The notes under the pieces: generated by a model
What the model was told of the DNA's origin: nothing
Databases searched by the model: none
What the model saw: the letters and a program-made list of their open reading frames with translations, nothing else
From: Candidatus Microgenomates bacterium
GTDB lineage: Bacteria; Patescibacteriota; Microgenomatia; UBA8517
Direction of reading: 5' to 3'
Assembly (NCBI GenBank): GCA_016784385.1
Contig: JADHUT010000006.1
Coordinates: forward strand, 1 to 44,742
Length of the DNA stretch: 44,742 nt
Translations under genes and position numbers: made by a program
In this document: one piece after another, positions 2 to 39,626 of the stretch
Layout: every line of letters begins with the position of its first letter
How positions within the stretch are numbered: the first letter of the stretch is position 1

Positions 2-271
2 CTCCCCCGGTAGGATTCGAACCTACAACCTTATTCTTACAGTTAACCCTCTTGTTACCAAAAGGCCTGGACTATCTCACCTCCCTCTAGGGGAGCCGGG
101 TATATAGTCTCTACACATTTACGAAAAATTTAAAAAATTTCGATTTAGCTCGGGATAGCCCTTTTTTTAAAAAAGGATTTCCCCGAATTAGCCCGGTTTT
201 CCACAATACATTGCTGTAAAGCGCTGCCTACATATTGACAGGAATCTGCTCTGCCATTGAGCTACAGGGGA
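2..271 (-). tRNA. tRNA-Asn(GUU), interrupted by a group I intron
   Basis: The exons are 271-238 and 39-2. Joined, they give a 72-nt cloverleaf: acceptor TCCCCTG pairs with CGGGGGA, D stem GCTC/GAGC, anticodon loop CTGTTAA (anticodon GTT at 34-36) and T arm GTAGG-TTCGAAT-CCTAC. Discriminator G is at base 2. Base 1 would be the first base after it, so an encoded CCA cannot be judged. Pair 27-43 is a G-A mismatch; the other arms are sound. The body closely resembles bacterial tRNA-Asn. A possible -10 (TATAAT on the minus strand) lies at 318-313. The intron splits the anticodon between positions 35 and 36. Confidence 0.9.
40..237 (-). ncRNA. Group I self-splicing intron in tRNA-Asn
   Basis: The 198-nt insert follows a U (base 238) and ends in G (base 40), as group I introns do. 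The 5' exon end CCUGU pairs with a guide GUAGG at 231-227, giving the diagnostic U-G pair at the splice site. A core block GGGGAAATCC...GGGCTATCCCGAG looks like the P4-P6 region. AGAGACTATA and GATAGTCC look like the two P7 strands. No reading frame lies inside, so it carries no homing endonuclease. It shares core blocks with the intron at 39395-39587. Confidence 0.88.
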
Positions 272-363: not shown

Positions 364-585
364 ATGTCAACTTTTTTTAAAGAACACTTCTCCCGCTCAT
401 TTGTAAAAGCCATAACCTTCAGATTGTTAGTAATAGTTTCAAATGTAATTATCATTACAGTTGTGACAGGGGAGGCAAGGGTTGTATTTTCTGTAGTTTT
501 GGTTTCTACTATTGCAAATACAATTTTATATATTCTTCACGAGAGAGTTTGGAACAAAGTTAAATGGGGGAGAGGAAAACATTAA
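364..585 (+). CDS. Small DUF2061-like membrane protein
   Basis: A 73-residue protein with two predicted hydrophobic segments (about residues 20-36 and 42-58). The opening KAITFRLL and closing YILHERVWNKVKWG match the pattern of DUF2061, a family of small two-helix membrane proteins of unknown function. It stands alone after the tRNA and overlaps by 4 nt the 3' end of the convergent zinc-ribbon gene. An AAGGAGG lies about 50 nt upstream, too far to serve this ATG, and the frame is open back to it, so the start could be earlier at a non-ATG codon. Confidence 0.7.
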   Translation: MSTFFKEHFSRSFVKAITFRLLVIVSNVIIITVVTGEARVVFSVVLVSTIANTILYILHERVWNKVKWGRGKH

Positions 586-1406
586 CAACTAACATCTGCT
601 CCACAGTGTTGACAATTTGGTATTAATTGTCCAACAGGCCTTGTGTTTGTTGTTCCGCATGTCGGACAGTCAAAATTTAGAGATCCATATTCATCTTCTA
701 GTCCTGAAAAAATAAACTTTTCTGAATTTAAAGTAGTAATATTTGAAAAACTACTTTTTCCGTTTGGGCAACTTATGGAATTTTTTCCTAAAAAGCCACT
801 TTCTTGCATTTGTTGTATTACGAAGTGGTGGGGTACTCCTGTTCTGATCTGGTTAGCGAAATAAACTGCTCTTTGTTTTGTATGGTGGGTTGTTTGGATT
901 AGATTTATATCTTTTTGTGTTTTCCTTTTTATCCAAGAGATTATTTTAAATATGTTTTGGTCGTCATCCGTGATTGTGTAGAGCGTTTTTCTTTTGTGTT
1001 TTGGATTTACAACATCAGCATCAAACAAAATTGCTGAGTTTAAAACTACCTTTTCTCCATCTGGAGTATATGCAATTTTATGAATTATTACCTTTGCACA
1101 AGGATATTCATCTATAAGAGGCGGACTGATCCAAAGAGCCATTCCTTCGTTGGTTTGACTTGCCCAATCTTGCAACTTGAACGCAACTTCTTTTTCCACC
1201 CCGTCAGCCACAAAGTCTAATACTGGTTTTTGTGTGTTTGGATCAATTAACATATCATTTTGTACCCGGAAGAAGTATGAATCTGGTTTACGATGGGTTT
1301 CTTGAGAGATAGATACAAGTTCAGCAATTAAACTGTTTTGTTCTTGTGAGTTCCAAGTTTTTGAAAATCTTGAAACAGTTTTTACTGGTGTCTCTTTGTA
1401 ACTCAT
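582..1406 (-). CDS. Unknown protein with C-terminal zinc ribbon, behind a cobalamin riboswitch
   Basis: A 274-residue soluble protein with no signal or membrane segment. The C-terminus has two CxxC pairs (CPTC and CQHC, about 20 residues apart), which suggests a zinc ribbon. A central stretch MALWISPPLIDEYPCAKVII followed by a line on gene-encoded product (GEKVVLNSAILFD) looks folded and conserved, but I do not recognise the family. The start at 1406 is preferred over the ATG at 1427 because AGGAAAAC sits just before it. The cobalamin riboswitch core at 1505-1431 ends about 20 nt before this ribosome site, so expression probably responds to cobalamin. It could be a cobalamin-related handling or sensing protein, but nothing in the sequence proves that. 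Confidence 0.75.
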   Translation of the reverse strand: MSYKETPVKTVSRFSKTWNSQEQNSLIAELVSISQETHRKPDSYFFRVQNDMLIDPNTQKPVLDFVADGVEKEVAFKLQDWASQTNEGMALWISPPLIDEYPCAKVIIHKIAYTPDGEKVVLNSAILFDADVVNPKHKRKTLYTITDDDQNIFKIISWIKRKTQKDINLIQTTHHTKQRAVYFANQIRTGVPHHFVIQQMQESGFLGKNSISCPNGKSSFSNITTLNSEKFIFSGLEDEYGSLNFDCPTCGTTNTRPVGQLIPNCQHCGADVSC

Positions 1407-1430
1407 ATGTTTTCCTGCTCGGGACATTTT

Positions 1431-1505
1431 AAGTTGCTAGTTTTCCGGCTAAACGGTTGCGGCACAGCTCCTGAATTTCACAGGATTCCTTAAACACAAC
1501 TTGTC
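1431..1505 (-). promoter_or_regulatory. Cobalamin riboswitch core (B12 box), compact form
   Basis: On the minus strand, 1481-1453 holds GTGAAATTCAGGAGCTGTGC followed at once by CGCAACCGT. With the preceding GGAATCCT this reproduces the conserved B12-box core of cobalamin riboswitches: a GUGAAAUUC hairpin closed by CCUG/CAGG, then GCUGUGCCGCAACCGU. Flanking AGTTG/CAACT (about 1501-1497 and 1436-1432) can close the element. It is smaller than the classical AdoCbl riboswitch because the usual P2-P3 arm is absent or very short. It lies directly before the ribosome site of the zinc-ribbon gene, so translational control is plausible. Confidence 0.8.
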
Positions 1506-1602
1506 AAAATTCATAGTAACTAGTTTTTAAAAAACAAACAAGTATGCAAAGAACAACAAATTTGGATAGTTTTTGAAAGTTTTCGTGATATTATTAATTA
1601 AC

Positions 1603-2127
1603 GTGGGTATTAAATTAGCTGTTCATGACAAGGCTTCTTTACTTCGTTCTGTTGTTCTTTCTGCAAATGATGGAATAATAACCACCTTTGCAATAGTTAC
1701 AGGCTCTCTAGGAGCTTCTCTCTCACCAACAGTGGTACTTATCTTAGGTTTTGCAAACCTTTTCGCTGATGGTTTTTCCATGGCCACAGGGAATTATCTA
1801 GGTATTAAAAGTGAAATTGAGTTGGAAAAGAAAGAAGGCCAAAACATTTCAATTGGAAACAAACCAATGAAAAATGGAATAATTACATTTTTTTCATTTG
1901 TGGTTGCGGGTTTTGTCCCACTTTTTCCTTATGTATTGAAGTTAAAAAATAGTTTTGTATTTTCCTGTGTTCTTGTTGCAATAACCTTGATAGTAGTTGG
2001 GTTCATTAGAGGAGTATACACAGGAAAAAACAAGTTAAAAATAGCCACAGAAAACTTGATTATTGGAGGACTGGCCGCAGTAGTTGCATATGGAGTTGGA
2101 TTTTTGGTTGATAAATATTTGATATAA
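1603..2127 (+). CDS. VIT/CCC1-family Fe/Mn transporter
   Basis: Multi-pass membrane protein of the VIT1/CCC1 family, which moves Fe2+ or Mn2+ across membranes. Hallmarks are LRSVVLSANDGIITTFAIVT in the first helix and ANLFADGFSMATGNYLGIKS in the second, followed by the short cytoplasmic EIELEKKE stretch and three more helices. At about 174 residues it is short, and the usual long metal-binding loop is reduced. The start is uncertain: GTG at 1603 gives the family-like N-terminus; TTG at 1573 would add ten hydrophobic residues. No ribosome site is seen. It is divergent from the riboswitch-controlled gene. Confidence 0.8.
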   Translation: MGIKLAVHDKASLLRSVVLSANDGIITTFAIVTGSLGASLSPTVVLILGFANLFADGFSMATGNYLGIKSEIELEKKEGQNISIGNKPMKNGIITFFSFVVAGFVPLFPYVLKLKNSFVFSCVLVAITLIVVGFIRGVYTGKNKLKIATENLIIGGLAAVVAYGVGFLVDKYLI

Positions 2128-25599: not shown

Positions 25600-25836
25600 A
25601 TTTTTTCTGGTGTTTATTTTTTTAATTTCTGCACTATTTCCGCGAGCAATTTATTCTCTCTTTTTTTAGCTATGCGCTACGGGTAGCTTGATATAGATAA
25701 ACATATTTGTTAGTAGTTGACTTACTAGGACTAGTGTTTCAATATCAATTCTGTCACTAGGGTTAGCGTATTTGCTTTCCACATGTGAAACTTGGTTATT
25801 CTTTGTGAAAACAAAAAGTAAATATGAAATGTCCAT
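25600..25836 (-). pseudogene. Possible broken XRE-type regulator remnant
   Basis: On the minus strand 25836-25666 reads as a frame with NNQVSHVESKYANPSDRIDI then ETLVLVSQLLTNMFIYIKLP, which looks like the second half of a Cro/C1 helix-turn-helix. After the stop, another frame continues with KRENKLLAEIVQKLKK, as if by a frameshift. The N-terminal half is missing, because the nrdR start occupies that DNA. This could be chance, but the pattern is unusual for intergenic sequence. Confidence 0.35.
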
Positions 25837-26264
25837 TTTGCAGCAACACCGATACACAAGTTTTGGAGTCGAGAGTGTCAGAAGATGGTCATGGAATGAG
25901 AAGAAGAAGAGAGTGTGGTAAGTGTAAAAAAAGATTTACTACGCAAGAGTTGGTTAGAAAGTCGGCTCTCTGGGTTATTAAAAATGACGGCAAGAGAGAA
26001 CTTTTTGAAAAAGAGAAAATTAAAAAAGGAATACTGCGAGCAATTGAAAAAAGACCAGTATCGATGGATCTTGTAAATGAAGTACTAGATCAGGTGGAGC
26101 AGGAAATGCTTCGAGCTGAAAAAGAAGAAGTGCAAAGTAGGGCAGTAGGAAATGCAGTTTTAAAAAGACTTAAAAAAATTGACAAAGTAGCATGGTTAAG
26201 ATTTGCAAGTGTATACATGAGGTTTGAGGAATTAGAAGATTTCGAAAAATGGCTAGAAAAATAA
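25824..26264 (+). CDS. nrdR: Transcriptional repressor NrdR
   Basis: 146 residues. N-terminal zinc ribbon (CPFC at 3-6, CGKC about 31-34) with the conserved VLESRVSEDGHGMRRRRECG, followed by an ATP-cone domain from about residue 48. NrdR senses ATP/dATP and represses ribonucleotide reductase genes. It overlaps nrdJ by 16 nt, its obvious target. No clear NrdR box pair is seen upstream. Confidence 0.95.
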   Translation: MKCPFCSNTDTQVLESRVSEDGHGMRRRRECGKCKKRFTTQELVRKSALWVIKNDGKRELFEKEKIKKGILRAIEKRPVSMDLVNEVLDQVEQEMLRAEKEEVQSRAVGNAVLKRLKKIDKVAWLRFASVYMRFEELEDFEKWLEK

Positions 26265-28840
26265 AAACAAAAGGTAAAGTAAAAAAAAGATTGAATAACA
26301 AGATATCTTTTAAAGATTTTGTTGCTCCAACACACGAGTCTATAAAGGAGGAAATTAAAAAGAAAGTTGGTATTCAACCTAAAAGGCCAACTGACTTGCA
26401 AAATGGCAATTGGACTGAACAATCATTGAAGGTTTTAAAAGAAAGATATTTGATGAAAGACAATGATTTGAACCCCATCGAAACCCCTGAAGATATGATT
26501 TGGAGAGTTTCTTGGGAGATTGCCTCATCAGAAGCCAGATGGGGAAGTGATGAAAAGCAGGTAATGGAGTCGGCGCGAGATTTTTACAATCTAATGATAT
26601 CTCGCAAATTTATGCCAAATTCTCCAACACTTATGAACGCGGGTACCGGTAACGGATTGCAGTATTCTGCTTGCTTTGTTCTTCCAGTTGAGGACTCAAT
26701 GGAGGGTATATTTGATGCCTTAAAATACCAGGCAATTATCCACAAAACTGGTGGTGGTACTGGATTTTCTTTTAACAGGTTAAGGCCGTTTGGATCTATT
26801 GTTAAAACAAGCTCGGGTACAGCATCAGGGCCAGTTTCTTTCATGAGAATTTTTGACGCATCAACCAATGAAGTGAAGCAAGGTGGAAAAAGAAGGGGGG
26901 CCAATATGGGAATATTGAGAGTTGATCATCCTGATATTTTGGAATTTATTCACTGTAAAGAAGAGGGTGGAATAACCAACTTCAATATTTCAGTAGGAAT
27001 TACAGATAAATTTATGCAAGCTTACAAAAATGATGAAGGTTATGAGCTTGTGGACCCTAGAACTAATGAAGTGATGAAAACTTTGTCTGCAAGAGAAGTT
27101 TTTGATGAGATCGCAGATGGAGCCCATAGAACTGGAGACCCCGGATTGATCTTTTTAGACAAGATGAACAGAGGGTCTTCCAACCCTGTTCCGTCTCTCG
27201 GTCCAATAGAAGCAACTAATCCATGCGGAGAGCAAATGTTATATCCATATGATGCATGCAACTTGGGAAGTATATTTTTAACCTATTTTGTCAAAGATGA
27301 AAAAGGTCTATCGCTTAATAAGCGAATTGATTGGGAAGGATTAAAAGAAGCTACGAGAATTGCTACAAGATTTTTAGATAATGTAATCGAAGTTAATCCA
27401 TACCCTCTTGAAGAAATAAGGAAAACAGTTCATTCAATTAGAAGAATAGGGTTGGGTATTGGTGGTTGGGCTGACATGCTCCTTTCACTGGGAATTCCTT
27501 ATGATTCTCAAAAGGCTCTAGATTTAGCAGGAAAAGTGATGAAAACTATTCAAAAAGAGGCAGTTTCAGAAACACAAAAACTGGCTATATCTAGAGGTGC
27601 ATTTCCTCTTTTTGAAAATTCAATTTACAAAAACAAAACTCCTAGGAGAAATTCTACAGTCACCACAATTGCTCCAACAGGCACAATATCAATTATTGCG
27701 GGTTCCAGTTCTGGAATTGAACCCTTGTTTGCAATTGCATATCAGCACATTGTAAAAGACAAGCATTTTGACAGAAAGATGTCATTTATTAATCCATACT
27801 TTGAAGAAGTGGCAAAGAGTGAAGGTTTTTGGAGTCCTGAACTTATGGATAAAGTTTCAGAACATGGAGTAGTTAGAGGGTTAACCGAAATTCCAGAAAA
27901 AACAAGAAAAGTTTTTGGAACTTCCCACGAGATTGACCCAATTTGGCATATTAAAACTCAGTCAATTTTTCAAAAATATACTGAAAATGCAGTTAGTAAA
28001 ACTATTAATTTAAGACACGATGTCACGGTGGACGATGTAAAAGATGCTTATATACAATCATGGGAAAGTGAGTGTAAAGGGGTTACGGTATTTAGAGATG
28101 GTTGCAAAGATGCTCAAGTACTAAATCTTGGAGTAAAAGATAAAGCTAAAAATGTCGAAGAAATACAAGACGTGGTAGTTGATGAAGATCCCCTAAGACA
28201 AAGGCCGTATGTGGTGACAGGGTCAACTTATAAAATGGGAACTCCTGTTGGTACTGCATTTGTAACTATAAATGAAGACACTGAAGGCCAACCTCTGGAA
28301 GTGTTTATTAATGTTGGTAAAGCCGGGAGTGATGTTGCAGCGATGGCAGAAGCTTTGGGTAGAACCATTTCCACTTCATTAAAATTCAAAGGAGGAGTTA
28401 CTGCCACAGAGCGAGCCAGAGAATTTGCAGAACAATTAGCAGGAATTGGTGGGAGAAGGTCAATTGGTTTTGGACCAACAAAAATAAGATCCCTGCCAGA
28501 TGCAGTAGCTGGGGCACTTTCTATCCACTATAAATTTGGAATTAACGGATACCATCTGAGCCCTCAGATTTTTAATGGAGACAAGGTATATACAAATGGG
28601 CAAGCAAATACACAAGAGATTGGGACGGAAGAACCCACAAAAGAAGAAACTGAAAAAGTTTCAGGAGATTTGTTTGTAGCAGACAGCGAAAAAGCAAACG
28701 AATCAGATTATCTGCAACTTTCCACAGACCAGACACATGCCCAAAAACCAGGTGATATTTGTCCTTCTTGCGGGGCCAGCGCATTAGTTTTTCAAGAAGG
28801 GTGTTCAAAATGCCACGCATGTGGACATAGTGAGTGTTAA
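26249..28840 (+). CDS. nrdJ: Adenosylcobalamin-dependent ribonucleoside-diphosphate reductase (class II)
   Basis: 863 residues. Reduces ribonucleotides to deoxyribonucleotides using a radical generated from adenosylcobalamin. Class II core motifs: SPTLMNAGT, STGTASGP-like SSGTASGPVSFMRIF, ATNPCGEQ with the active-site Cys, and APTGTISIIAG. The C-terminal FGPTKIRSLPDAVAGALSIH region and a terminal zinc finger (CPSC...CSKCHACGHSEC) are typical of long NrdJ. No small subunit gene is present, as expected for class II. The next gene encodes the enzyme that makes its cofactor. Confidence 0.96.
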   Translation: MARKIKTKGKVKKRLNNKISFKDFVAPTHESIKEEIKKKVGIQPKRPTDLQNGNWTEQSLKVLKERYLMKDNDLNPIETPEDMIWRVSWEIASSEARWGSDEKQVMESARDFYNLMISRKFMPNSPTLMNAGTGNGLQYSACFVLPVEDSMEGIFDALKYQAIIHKTGGGTGFSFNRLRPFGSIVKTSSGTASGPVSFMRIFDASTNEVKQGGKRRGANMGILRVDHPDILEFIHCKEEGGITNFNISVGITDKFMQAYKNDEGYELVDPRTNEVMKTLSAREVFDEIADGAHRTGDPGLIFLDKMNRGSSNPVPSLGPIEATNPCGEQMLYPYDACNLGSIFLTYFVKDEKGLSLNKRIDWEGLKEATRIATRFLDNVIEVNPYPLEEIRKTVHSIRRIGLGIGGWADMLLSLGIPYDSQKALDLAGKVMKTIQKEAVSETQKLAISRGAFPLFENSIYKNKTPRRNSTVTTIAPTGTISIIAGSSSGIEPLFAIAYQHIVKDKHFDRKMSFINPYFEEVAKSEGFWSPELMDKVSEHGVVRGLTEIPEKTRKVFGTSHEIDPIWHIKTQSIFQKYTENAVSKTINLRHDVTVDDVKDAYIQSWESECKGVTVFRDGCKDAQVLNLGVKDKAKNVEEIQDVVVDEDPLRQRPYVVTGSTYKMGTPVGTAFVTINEDTEGQPLEVFINVGKAGSDVAAMAEALGRTISTSLKFKGGVTATERAREFAEQLAGIGGRRSIGFGPTKIRSLPDAVAGALSIHYKFGINGYHLSPQIFNGDKVYTNGQANTQEIGTEEPTKEETEKVSGDLFVADSEKANESDYLQLSTDQTHAQKPGDICPSCGASALVFQEGCSKCHACGHSEC

Positions 28841-28887
28841 AGTCCTTTCAATAAAACAAATCCGGCCCACTTTGGTATGATATGGCA

Positions 28888-29379
28888 ATGTCTGTTTACA
28901 CAAAAAAGGGGGACAAAGGAAAAACTTCAGTTTTGGGTGGAAAGAGGATTTCAAAAAATTCAAAAGTAATTAACGCAATTGGAGCAATAGATGAACTAAA
29001 TTCATACATCGGTATTATTGGAAGATTGGAAAGTATCCAAAAAAATCTTTTTACAATTAATTCAATTTTGGCTGGGTCTGATTTGAAATTGCCCCCAAAT
29101 GCTACAAAAAAAATGGAGATTGAAATTGACAAAACAGAAGGGAAACTGCCAGTTTTAAAAAACTTCATTATATATAGTGGAACCTCAAGAGCAAAAAGAC
29201 TTTTCTTTGCAAGAAGTATATGTCGTCGCGCAGAAAGAATTTTGGTATGCTTGCCAAATATCCAAAAAAACAATCCTGAGATACTCAAATTCATAAATAG
29301 ACTGAGTGACTATTTGTTTACAATGGCAAGAAGCGAGAACTATTCTAAAAAGATTAAAGAACTCACCTGGAATCAGTGA
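28888..29379 (+). CDS. ATP:cob(I)alamin adenosyltransferase (PduO type)
   Basis: 163 residues. It converts cob(I)alamin to adenosylcobalamin, the cofactor of NrdJ encoded 47 nt upstream. Family marks: the start VYTKKGDKGKTSVLGG, the active-site block ARSICRRAERIL and the closing FINRLSDYLFTMAR. ATG 28888 is preferred to 28882 because TATGAT (28876-28881) ends 6 nt before it and the protein then begins as the family does. Confidence 0.9.
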   Translation: MSVYTKKGDKGKTSVLGGKRISKNSKVINAIGAIDELNSYIGIIGRLESIQKNLFTINSILAGSDLKLPPNATKKMEIEIDKTEGKLPVLKNFIIYSGTSRAKRLFFARSICRRAERILVCLPNIQKNNPEILKFINRLSDYLFTMARSENYSKKIKELTWNQ

Positions 29380-29394
29380 TATACTAAATTTAGT

Positions 29395-29757
29395 ATGGCG
29401 CTATTTCCTGAAAAAGAACCAAAGAATATTGCTACTGAAGTAGGGGGTGAAGAACCTTCTGCCTTAAACATTGAAAGAAAAGAAGTCGTTACCCCAATTC
29501 CTACTCAATTTAAGGCACAAGTCGCAGACGATTCTGGAAACCCAATAATTCAAACCCCACAAACCAAAAAGGTTCAGATTACAATTCCTGCGACCAGCGA
29601 GGAAGAGCTGCAAAAAAACAGAAAAGAAAAAACAACAACAACGACTTCTTGGAACGCATCATTTTTACTGCGTGTAATACAAAAAGCCTTGCATTTTGGA
29701 AAGCAGGTTTTATTTTCGCCTATAAAAATGCAAAATGAAGGAGGAAAGGCAAGATGA
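29395..29757 (+). CDS. Hypothetical protein upstream of a TraD/HerA-like ATPase
   Basis: 120 residues, mostly low-complexity polar sequence (many Pro, Thr, Lys, Glu) with a short helical end (LLRVIQKALHFGKQVLF). It overlaps the ATPase gene by 4 nt (ATGA), so the two are probably translated together. TATACT at 29380-29385 and a perfect 16-bp palindrome ATACTAAATTTAGTAT (29381-29396) overlap the start codon. Function unknown. Confidence 0.65.
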   Translation: MALFPEKEPKNIATEVGGEEPSALNIERKEVVTPIPTQFKAQVADDSGNPIIQTPQTKKVQITIPATSEEELQKNRKEKTTTTTSWNASFLLRVIQKALHFGKQVLFSPIKMQNEGGKAR

Positions 29758-32081
29758 TAATACCTGATATAACAACAATTGTTACAACATTTTTTTTGGT
29801 GATAATCTTACTTTTCTTGGTTGCTGCTATTGGTTATTTTCTTTTCGTAATATTTAAGTATAGAGGTAGGGAAACAAAATCCATTGATTCAGTTCTTTTC
29901 CAGGTTTCAATGCCTCGCCTTAATGAAATAAAAATAGATGCAATGGAGCAACTTTTTGCCTCTTTGTATTCTATTAAAAAAGGAGGGTGGAAGCAGAAAT
30001 TTTCGGTGCAGCCAGCTATTTCTTTTGAGATTATTGCTCGTGAAGAAGATATAAAGTTTTACATTTGGACCCCAGTCGAAACAAAAGATTTGGTGGAAAA
30101 ACAGGTTCACGGAGCATATCCAGATGCAGAAGTATTGGAAGTTGATGAAATAAACATATTTGATACCAAGGGTGCAGTTGCTTATAAATCACTCCAACTT
30201 GGCAAAGCCAATCATTACCCTCTAAAAACTTTCAAAGATTTGCCAACTGACATTATGGCCTCTATTACATCATCTCTTGCAAAAATGGGGAAGGGAGAAG
30301 CTGCTTCAATTCAAATATTGGTTTCACCAGCTGAGTCTGATTGGCAAAAGAATGGTAGTAAGTTTATTTCAGACACCAAAAAACAAGAAAGTACAGCTGA
30401 AAGTGCAAAATATTCAGTATCAGGTAAAACTTTGGAAGCAGTTGAGGGGAAAGTTTCAAAACCTGGGTTTGTTACTTCTATAAGAATAGTGGTGGTATCG
30501 GGCAGCAAAGAAACTGCAAAGACTCATTTGGGCAATATTGTCTCGTCCATAGGTCAAACTGCAGGGGATATGAATAATTTGGGAAGCAGAAAAATTTACA
30601 ACAAAGGGGCCTTCATGCAGGACTTTTTGTATAGGTATCAACCAATGTTCCATGTCTTAAAAAATCATGAAAGTATCTTAAACTCAGAAGAGCTGTCAAC
30701 AATTTTTCATTTTCCCAATAGACAAGTTACTACACCACACATTCACTGGTTGCACAGTAAAACTGCTCCTGCACCCGCTGAGATACCCAGCAGCGGCCTT
30801 TATTTGGGTAAAAGTGTATATAGAGGTGTGAATAGAGATATATATATGGGAGACGATGATAGAAGTAGACACACCTATATTATCGGAGCCACAGGTACTG
30901 GAAAAACTGAACTTATGAAAAGCATGATTATGCAAGACATTCGAGCCGGGAAAGGCATCTGTTTTATGGACCCACACGGTGATGCAGTAGAGGATATATT
31001 AAAACTTATTCCTCCAGAAAGAGCAGAAGATGTTATTTACTTTAGACCAAGTGATACAGCCAGACCAATGGGCCTTAATCTATTGGAAGCAAAAACTGAA
31101 GATCAAAAGCATTTTGTAACAACATCTGTCATTAATATGATGTACAAGCTCTTTGACCCTCATAAGACCGGTATTGTTGGACCACGTTTTGAACATGCCG
31201 TGAGAAACGCCATGTTAACAGTCATGGTAGAGCCAGGAAGTACTTTTATTGAGGTAATGCGTGCATTAACTGATGCAAAATTTGTTCAAGAGCTTCTTCC
31301 CAAAGTAGAAGACCCAATTATAAGGCGATACTGGACTGATCAAATCGCACAAACTTCTGATTTTCATAAATCAGAGGTATTGGATTACATTACTTCAAAA
31401 TTTGGCCGATTCGTTACAAACAGAATGATTAGAAATATAATTGGTCAATCCACTTCATCTTTCTCTTTTAGAGATGTTATGGATAACGGAAAAATATTAC
31501 TAATTAACCTGGCAAAAGGAGAACTGTCAGAAGAAAATTCAAACTTTTTGGGGCTAATTTTAGTTCCCCGTATTCTAATGGCTGCCATGAGTAGGACTGA
31601 TACACCAGAAGACCAAAGAAGACCTTTCTATTTGTATGTTGATGAATTCCAGAATTTCGCTACACCTGACTTTGCAGTAATACTTTCAGAAGCTAGAAAA
31701 TACAAACTTAATCTAACTGTTGCTAATCAATTTATAGGACAAATGGAGGAAGATGTAAAAAATGCTATTTTTGGAAATGTGGGTACAAAGATTTCATTTA
31801 GGGCAGGTGTCACCGATGCTAACTATCTACAACATGAGTTTGCACCAACATTTGGGGAAGATGATTTACTCAATGTCCAAAGATACCATGCATATGTAAA
31901 AACAATTGTGAACAACCAACCAGTTACACCATTTTCATTAGATACAACCCTGGATTTATCAAAAATAAAAGCACAAGAAGATACAAGGGTTTCTGAAATA
32001 ATTCAAGAAATGAGTAGACTAAAGAATGGAAGAGATGCTGGACTTGTGGAAGTAGAGATTGCAAGAAGAGCAAAGCTCTGA
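29754..32081 (+). CDS. Membrane-anchored TraD/HerA-type ATPase
   Basis: 775 residues. One N-terminal helix (about 8-32), an uncharacterised middle, then a P-loop ATPase with Walker A GATGTGKT (about 378-385) followed by MDPHGDAVEDIL and Walker B LYVDEFQNFAT. The pattern is that of TraD/TraG-like coupling proteins with a TraM-recognition region. Such ATPases move DNA or protein. No other conjugation gene is in the window, so it may serve a pilus, secretion or DNA-uptake system. Confidence 0.85.
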   Translation: MIIPDITTIVTTFFLVIILLFLVAAIGYFLFVIFKYRGRETKSIDSVLFQVSMPRLNEIKIDAMEQLFASLYSIKKGGWKQKFSVQPAISFEIIAREEDIKFYIWTPVETKDLVEKQVHGAYPDAEVLEVDEINIFDTKGAVAYKSLQLGKANHYPLKTFKDLPTDIMASITSSLAKMGKGEAASIQILVSPAESDWQKNGSKFISDTKKQESTAESAKYSVSGKTLEAVEGKVSKPGFVTSIRIVVVSGSKETAKTHLGNIVSSIGQTAGDMNNLGSRKIYNKGAFMQDFLYRYQPMFHVLKNHESILNSEELSTIFHFPNRQVTTPHIHWLHSKTAPAPAEIPSSGLYLGKSVYRGVNRDIYMGDDDRSRHTYIIGATGTGKTELMKSMIMQDIRAGKGICFMDPHGDAVEDILKLIPPERAEDVIYFRPSDTARPMGLNLLEAKTEDQKHFVTTSVINMMYKLFDPHKTGIVGPRFEHAVRNAMLTVMVEPGSTFIEVMRALTDAKFVQELLPKVEDPIIRRYWTDQIAQTSDFHKSEVLDYITSKFGRFVTNRMIRNIIGQSTSSFSFRDVMDNGKILLINLAKGELSEENSNFLGLILVPRILMAAMSRTDTPEDQRRPFYLYVDEFQNFATPDFAVILSEARKYKLNLTVANQFIGQMEEDVKNAIFGNVGTKISFRAGVTDANYLQHEFAPTFGEDDLLNVQRYHAYVKTIVNNQPVTPFSLDTTLDLSKIKAQEDTRVSEIIQEMSRLKNGRDAGLVEVEIARRAKL

Positions 32082-39363: not shown

Positions 39364-39626
39364 TGCGGGGTAGTGTACGGCTGCACGTGAGGCTCAAAAT
39401 GGGCCGCTTTATTAGTAATTTTTAAGCAGAATTTGGCTATATCAGGGAAATCCTTTTTTTAAAGGGCTATCCTGAGGGAAGTCTCCATAAAGGATGGATG
39501 ACCCCGCAGAGACTACACGCCGAACCCCTGATTATTTCAGGGTGATGATATAGTCCGACACTCCAAGTAATTGGAGATTACAGTTTGCATAATCTCACAG
39601 ACTGGGTTCAACTCCCAGCCCCGCAA
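39364..39626 (+). tRNA. tRNA with anticodon CAU (Met or lysidine-Ile), interrupted by a group I intron
   Basis: Exons 39364-39394 and 39588-39626. Joined: acceptor TGCGGGG/CCCCGCA, D arm GTGT-ACGGCT-GCAC, anticodon stem TGAGG/TCTCA with loop CTCATAA (anticodon CAT), short variable loop CAGA, T arm CTGGG-TTCAACT-CCCAG, discriminator A, then CAG not CCA. U1-A72 and T11-A24 argue against a classical initiator. Given that tRNA-Met(CAU) is at 38466-38539 and tRNA-Ile(UAU) at 33006, the role of this copy is uncertain. The intron lies between positions 33 and 34. Confidence 0.88.
39395..39587 (+). ncRNA. Group I self-splicing intron in the CAU tRNA
   Basis: 193 nt, following U 39394 and ending in G 39587. 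Exon end GGCU pairs with a guide GGCC in ATGGGCCGC near 39401-39406, with U-G at the splice site. Core block CAGGGAAATCCTTTTTTT...AAGGGCTATCCTGAG and the P7-like AGAGACTA...TATAGTCC match the intron at 40-237. No reading frame inside. Confidence 0.88.

Follow-up and report, generated by a model that had tools for sequence, protein, structure and literature searches.

A cobalamin riboswitch and the undescribed zinc-ribbon protein family it precedes in Microgenomatia, with a possible connection to type IV secretion

Genes repressed by vitamin B12 (cobalamin) often encode B12-independent isozymes. In characterised corrinoid riboswitches, kissing of loops L5 and L13 stabilises stem P13, which shuts the ribosome-binding site or promotes a terminator (PMC10653944). 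Here we analyse a stretch of 44,742 nucleotides from contig JADHUT010000006.1 of a Candidatus Microgenomates bacterium (assembly GCA_016784385.1), referred to throughout as the window, which belongs to a 696-kb genome of the candidate phyla radiation (CPR) type (G000). Its minus strand carries a cobalamin riboswitch followed by the gene of a zinc-ribbon protein of 274 amino acids (582-1406, stop codon included), identified by its homologues and apparently a member of a previously undescribed family. The best explanation that we can offer, evenly balanced between being right and being wrong, is that B12 shortage turns on a protein linked to type IV secretion systems (T4SS).

The riboswitch and its expression platform

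The whole window was scanned with cmscan against all 4227 families, and an aptamer of the AdoCbl-II (adenosylcobalamin) type was located at 1431-1502 of the minus strand, with a match to the complete RF01689 model (positions 1-81) that reached 41.0 bits over a gathering cut-off of 36.5 (E value 1.6e-6). RF00174 also matched this aptamer, at 28.1 bits, which is below its cut-off. A sequence-only reading had predicted a cobalamin riboswitch here and had proposed an Rfam search as a check; by these comparative criteria the prediction is confirmed and the RNA is a genuine representative of a known class. It was judged real because of covariation across homologues and not because of lone-strand folding, which gave no support (z = -0.47) and was not used. 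The covariation counts were taken from an alignment of 32 riboswitch homologues (A3), in which P4, P6 and P13 covaried, with 96.6% of cells paired; shuffles gave 69.8% and slid controls 29-57%. In P4, the hairpin UCCUG...CAGGA at 1469-1485 (minus strand), changes on both sides were found at four of the five pairs and 95% of cells were paired, while all three stem pairs of P13 showed changes on both sides, this stem occurring as UCC/GGA, UUC/GAA, UCU/AGA, CCC/GGG, CUG/CAG and UCA/UGA.

The RNA 3' of the window aptamer reads AAAAUG UCC CGAGCA GGA AAACAU AUG, and the putative expression platform, supported by covariation, consists of P13 (UCC/GGA) and loop L13 (CGAGCA) at 1413-1424 (minus strand). 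A Shine-Dalgarno sequence, AGGA (1416-1413), lies in the 3' side of P13, with a spacer of 6 nt to the ATG at 1404-1406 (minus strand). The first ATG of the longer open reading frame (ORF; 582-1427, minus strand) is located at 1427, upstream of the P13 hairpin; because the geometry of the ribosome-binding site fits at 1406, this is the probable start of translation, correcting 1427, and the residues of the 274-amino-acid protein are numbered from it. Loop L5 (UGCCG, 1460-1464, minus strand), assigned from its conservation in A3 and its complementarity to L13, is UGCCG nearly everywhere among the homologues, and L13 follows the pattern CG-N-GCA, being otherwise nearly constant. Five pairs can form between them (CG.GCA to UGC.CG), leaving one bulged base, which is variable, and at one locus (L032) an L5 of UCUCG is accompanied by the loop CGAAGA, a double compensation. 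We infer from this that L5 and L13 kiss in the window RNA. In the version that precedes the cob(I)alamin adenosyltransferase (ATR) gene, the same segment is able to pair with a terminator stem (UCCUUCUCGGGAGAGAAGGAUUUUUU, L081).

The aptamer is of the AdoCbl-II class, and its ligand is presumably one of the cobalamins. Because the characterised riboswitches behave in this way (PMC10653944), the switch is presumed to be OFF when B12 is plentiful: ligand binding would allow L5 to kiss L13, P13 would be stabilised, the Shine-Dalgarno sequence would be hidden and translation would be repressed. On the comparative evidence, this regulatory part of the account appears very probable.

A protein family coupled to the riboswitch across the class

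The named relatives that were found are Candidatus Daviesbacteria. The protein or a homologue is encoded in 16 of the 56 genomes searched among relatives, G000 included, for which reason the ORF is considered real, and in all 16 a riboswitch lies directly upstream, recognised by RF01689 in 15 of them and by eye in G015, where it contains large insertions. The sequence-only reading had also proposed to check whether homologues follow B12 riboswitches; in all these genomes they do. A survey of the class that covered 281 genomes yielded 100 profile hits to the family and 200 riboswitches (in 187 genomes), and 73 of the hits had a riboswitch on the same strand less than 2.2 kb upstream. Most of the other 27 are false hits, contig ends or cases of weaker matches: closer scanning gave riboswitches above the RF00174 cut-off in G250 and G080, weaker riboswitch matches were present in G167, G214 and G269 and a B12 box in some others, the hits of G152 and G147 are at contig ends, and near that of G290 a riboswitch was looked for and none was found. 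Two loci (L116 and L134) show a riboswitch followed only by a zinc-ribbon ORF of around 100 amino acids, with no full protein.

The window protein consists of an alpha/beta core and a C-terminal zinc ribbon (585-689, minus strand), whose conserved cysteines (C247, C250, C265 and C268) fall within residues 247-268; its last residue is also a cysteine (C274). In the short forms of the family, E36, S94-P95, R139, C213 and the four zinc cysteines are invariant or nearly so. The window protein could be placed in no Pfam or NCBIfam family, all the matches obtained being below the cut-offs, and neither it nor its homologues match the Pfam or NCBIfam families of known B12 enzymes, transporters or ATR, which agrees with the initial statement that this gene encodes none of the known B12 transporters, synthases or isozymes. 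It also gave no match to profiles of ribonucleotide reductase (RNR) or NrdR, which are encoded in the window by separate genes (NrdR and NrdJ, 25824-28840), to T4SS component families or to PADLOC anti-phage profiles; among 36 members of the family, one weakly matches HEC-08 and one TmtA. No relative appeared among the plasmids and viral contigs searched.

Three disjoint sets of sequences, one of short members (A2) and two of longer ones (A6, A7), are homologous along almost their entire length (hhalign E values of 7e-25, 5e-20 and 4e-18). Such disjoint-profile comparisons replaced iterated profile searches because the latter drew in NrdJ tails by way of the zinc ribbon. AlphaFold models of one short and one long member (pLDDT 81 and 80, pTM 0.69 and 0.76) share a common order of helices and strands; weak PAS/longin/TagF-like Foldseek matches were not used. 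The bodies of the members are mostly 15-30% identical, and a few types of zinc-ribbon tail are common to very different bodies, as in the window protein and that of L003, with tails 75% and bodies 21% identical. When the tails were examined as a possible general tag, the four types tested turned up nowhere but on the family, the exceptions being a truncated member located where a contig ends and a ribbon that is N-terminal. Hits outside the class were not counted as members because they align almost exclusively over the zinc-ribbon region and no cobalamin riboswitch lay near the nine that were scanned; of the hits inside the class that cover the zinc ribbon only, several were read as prolyl-tRNA synthetases.

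Secretion genes, B12 genes and the role of the protein

Gene neighbourhoods were examined in 40 loci bearing the family or the riboswitch, with flanks of about 8 kb, or as much as the contig offered, and with 20 windows from genomes of the class as controls. PrgI and VirB4 were present in 21 of the 40 loci and in none of the control windows (Fisher 2.4e-5). The T4SS-linked loci belong to five GTDB families (f1, f2, f3, f5 and f8); in most of them the riboswitch gene is next to PrgI and divergent from it, with 85-1300 nt in between (f1 and f5), and in f2, f3 and f8 PrgI is located downstream, on the same strand as the riboswitch gene. Two f5 loci lacked a family ORF above the threshold applied. 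Many of the other loci adjoin NrdJ and ATR. In the window, the gene divergent from the riboswitch gene encodes a VIT1-family transporter (1573-2127, plus strand), and 5 of the 40 loci also have a match to VIT1 less than 8 kb away from the family gene.

The proposal made here is that when B12 is short, and hence AdoCbl for the only RNR detected in G000, the protein would be made and would work with the type IV secretion apparatus, either as a delivered substrate or as an accessory factor acting on a neighbour or host cell, and that the purpose could be gaining B12 or deoxynucleotides. We infer each step of the protein's own action, translocation included, and give its role in the T4SS nearly even chances. 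Several observations weigh against it. Family f5 dominates the linkage, with 14 of its 14 loci positive, that is, 14 of the 21; outside f5 the count is 7 of 26, a share that nonetheless exceeds the assumed base rates of 4-8%, with binomial values of 5e-5 to 4e-3. The T4SS loci were chosen by the authors and the statistics ignore kinship, the window gene itself is not beside PrgI-VirB4, and Foldseek comparisons of the window model with PDB and BFVD, and of the second model with PDB, yielded nothing at E <= 0.001. In addition, the operons with ATR and uptake-like genes described below would suit B12 handling equally well.

B12 handling is in fact the main competing explanation, and a somewhat unlikely one in our view. 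According to it, the protein would be a cytosolic factor that reduces, de-ligates or passes imported cobalamin to ATR and NrdJ, its invariant cysteine and zinc ribbon being redox or transfer sites. The other targets of the riboswitch speak in its favour. Among the 83 best-scoring riboswitch loci, a set that was not drawn at random and that includes genes used in building the profiles, the first target is the family in 52, ATR in 6, DUF4430 or DUF6580 in 10 and an unassigned gene in 15, at least two of the latter (L034 and L094) being family genes that the search window or threshold failed to capture. In all six ATR-first loci, riboswitch-led operons, the family gene follows ATR, and an operon in G155 combines uptake-like genes, ATR and the family gene. 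At L186 (401-4944) a single riboswitch leads an operon for DUF4430, an alpha/alpha toroid, DUF6580, ATR and the family gene; the toroid protein is perhaps intrinsic-factor-like and DUF6580 a component of ECF type. Two cobalamin riboswitches in series were observed at L177 and L178, one before DUF4430-DUF6580 and the other before the family gene, and at five loci in other families of the class (L031, L089, L090, L099 and L101) the targets, of about 260-500 amino acids, escape the profiles built for the protein family. Read from these arrangements, ATR, the uptake-like DUF4430/DUF6580 pair, MetE (see below) and the family form a B12 regulon. The switch is also close to RNR genes: considering only genomes with a listed RNR, 51 of 115 riboswitches have one less than 3 kb upstream on the same strand, and the order NrdJ-switch-ATR-family gene is found in the operons of L173-L176, preceded by NrdR in L180 (NrdR-NrdJ-switch-ATR-family gene).

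What argues against a handling factor is the genome G066 (734 kb, 96% complete; loci L201-L238), in which no RNR (PF02867, PF13597) or ATR profile match was obtained, tblastn at E 1 gave no match for NrdJ, NrdR or ATR, and no canonical B12-binding motif was detected, these being simple searches that leave room for other kinds of B12 enzyme. Its family gene nevertheless retains an intact switch upstream and lies within the only T4SS cluster detected in the genome, together with T4SS pilins, a VirB6-like protein and a protein with a lysozyme domain. Similarly, G100 (86% complete) keeps the switch and the family gene and has NrdD, while NrdJ and ATR were not found by profile searches. The low identity between bodies would be unusual in a conserved enzyme, and matches to B12-protein families are lacking, as indicated above. 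Of the original proposal of a new B12-related protein, the part concerning regulation holds; as to its role, the T4SS linkage and the NrdJ- and ATR-free G066 suggest that the protein may be one that responds to B12 without handling it.

In the window, NrdJ (26249-28840, plus strand; NF006417 995 bits, TIGR02504 698 bits) is preceded by an NrdR-like regulator (25824-26264, plus strand), named from its sequence and found in the same order at L180, and followed by a PduO-type ATR (28882-29379, plus strand; TIGR00636 135.5 bits over a cut-off of 108; PF01923). After a small ORF, a TrwB/TraG ATPase resembling T4SS coupling proteins is encoded (29754-32081, plus strand; PF10412 43 bits, PF12696, PF02534); the order NrdR-NrdJ-ATR followed by this type of ATPase recurs at L174-L176 and L258, close to family genes. 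NrdJ is the sole PF02867 gene found in G000, and NrdD was not found there. Proximity to NrdJ in many genomes could also indicate that the family protein is a partner or regulator which tunes or re-reduces NrdJ under limiting AdoCbl through its Cys-rich tail, CPxC..CxxC..C, similar to the NrdJ end CPxCG..C..C..C..C. This seems quite improbable, given that switch and family persist in genomes without NrdJ and that the likeness of the tails may be generic to zinc ribbons, because the profiles also drew apparent prolyl-tRNA synthetases and ribosomal eL43. Finally, it is very improbable that the protein replaces a B12 enzyme without needing B12, in the way that MetE replaces MetH: the best-scoring riboswitch found in the class (RF00174, 98.7 bits; 1021-1192 of L109, in G276) does precede MetE, a classical B12-repressed gene here observed in a CPR genome, but the alpha/beta core and zinc ribbon of the 274-amino-acid protein have no enzyme-like match in sequence or fold.

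Apart from these genes, the window contains two group I introns (RF00028), at 48-247 (minus strand, 70 bits) and 39385-39577 (plus strand, 89 bits), the former of which appears to split a tRNA at the start of the contig that was not reported by ARAGORN.

Comparison with known systems

No description of the target family, of a B12 regulon in CPR bacteria or of the T4SS linkage was found in the open-access literature searched, few subscription journals and preprints being covered. The RNA is of a known class, but throughout a bacterial class its chief target is an undescribed protein family, and B12 supply, the synthesis of DNA precursors and a secretion apparatus would be linked in mostly uncultured organisms, which offers testable handles on the dependence of CPR bacteria upon their neighbours. 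A further extension, which we consider unlikely, is that B12 acts as a signal of the environment or of the state of the host, and that the riboswitch ties its shortage to deployment of a T4SS protein even in a genome without a detectable B12-dependent enzyme; a vitamin riboswitch would then govern interaction between cells, not metabolism.

Compared with the T4SS cluster of CPR bacteria (PrgI, VirB4, T4SS_pilin and a TrwB/TraG-like ATPase), the family gene is often its immediate divergent or co-directional neighbour; it differs in that the protein, a candidate for translocation, matches no T4SS component family. The family tail resembles that of NrdJ in having CPxC...CxxC...C near the C-terminus, although no homology was seen beyond a generic zinc ribbon and five cysteines are present instead of six. 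As an RNA, the window aptamer exceeds the Rfam cut-off for the AdoCbl-II riboswitch (RF01689, clan CL00101) and, as in the characterised riboswitches (PMC10653944), P13/L13 is placed over the ribosome-binding site or, before ATR, an antiterminator/terminator is found; what sets it apart is an L13 of the form CG-N-GCA with a variable bulge and a target in an undescribed family. Lastly, B12-repressed regulons comprise uptake genes, ATR and MetE, and the class has these same targets under the same switch, with the difference that here the commonest first target, at 52 of 83 loci, is the new family.
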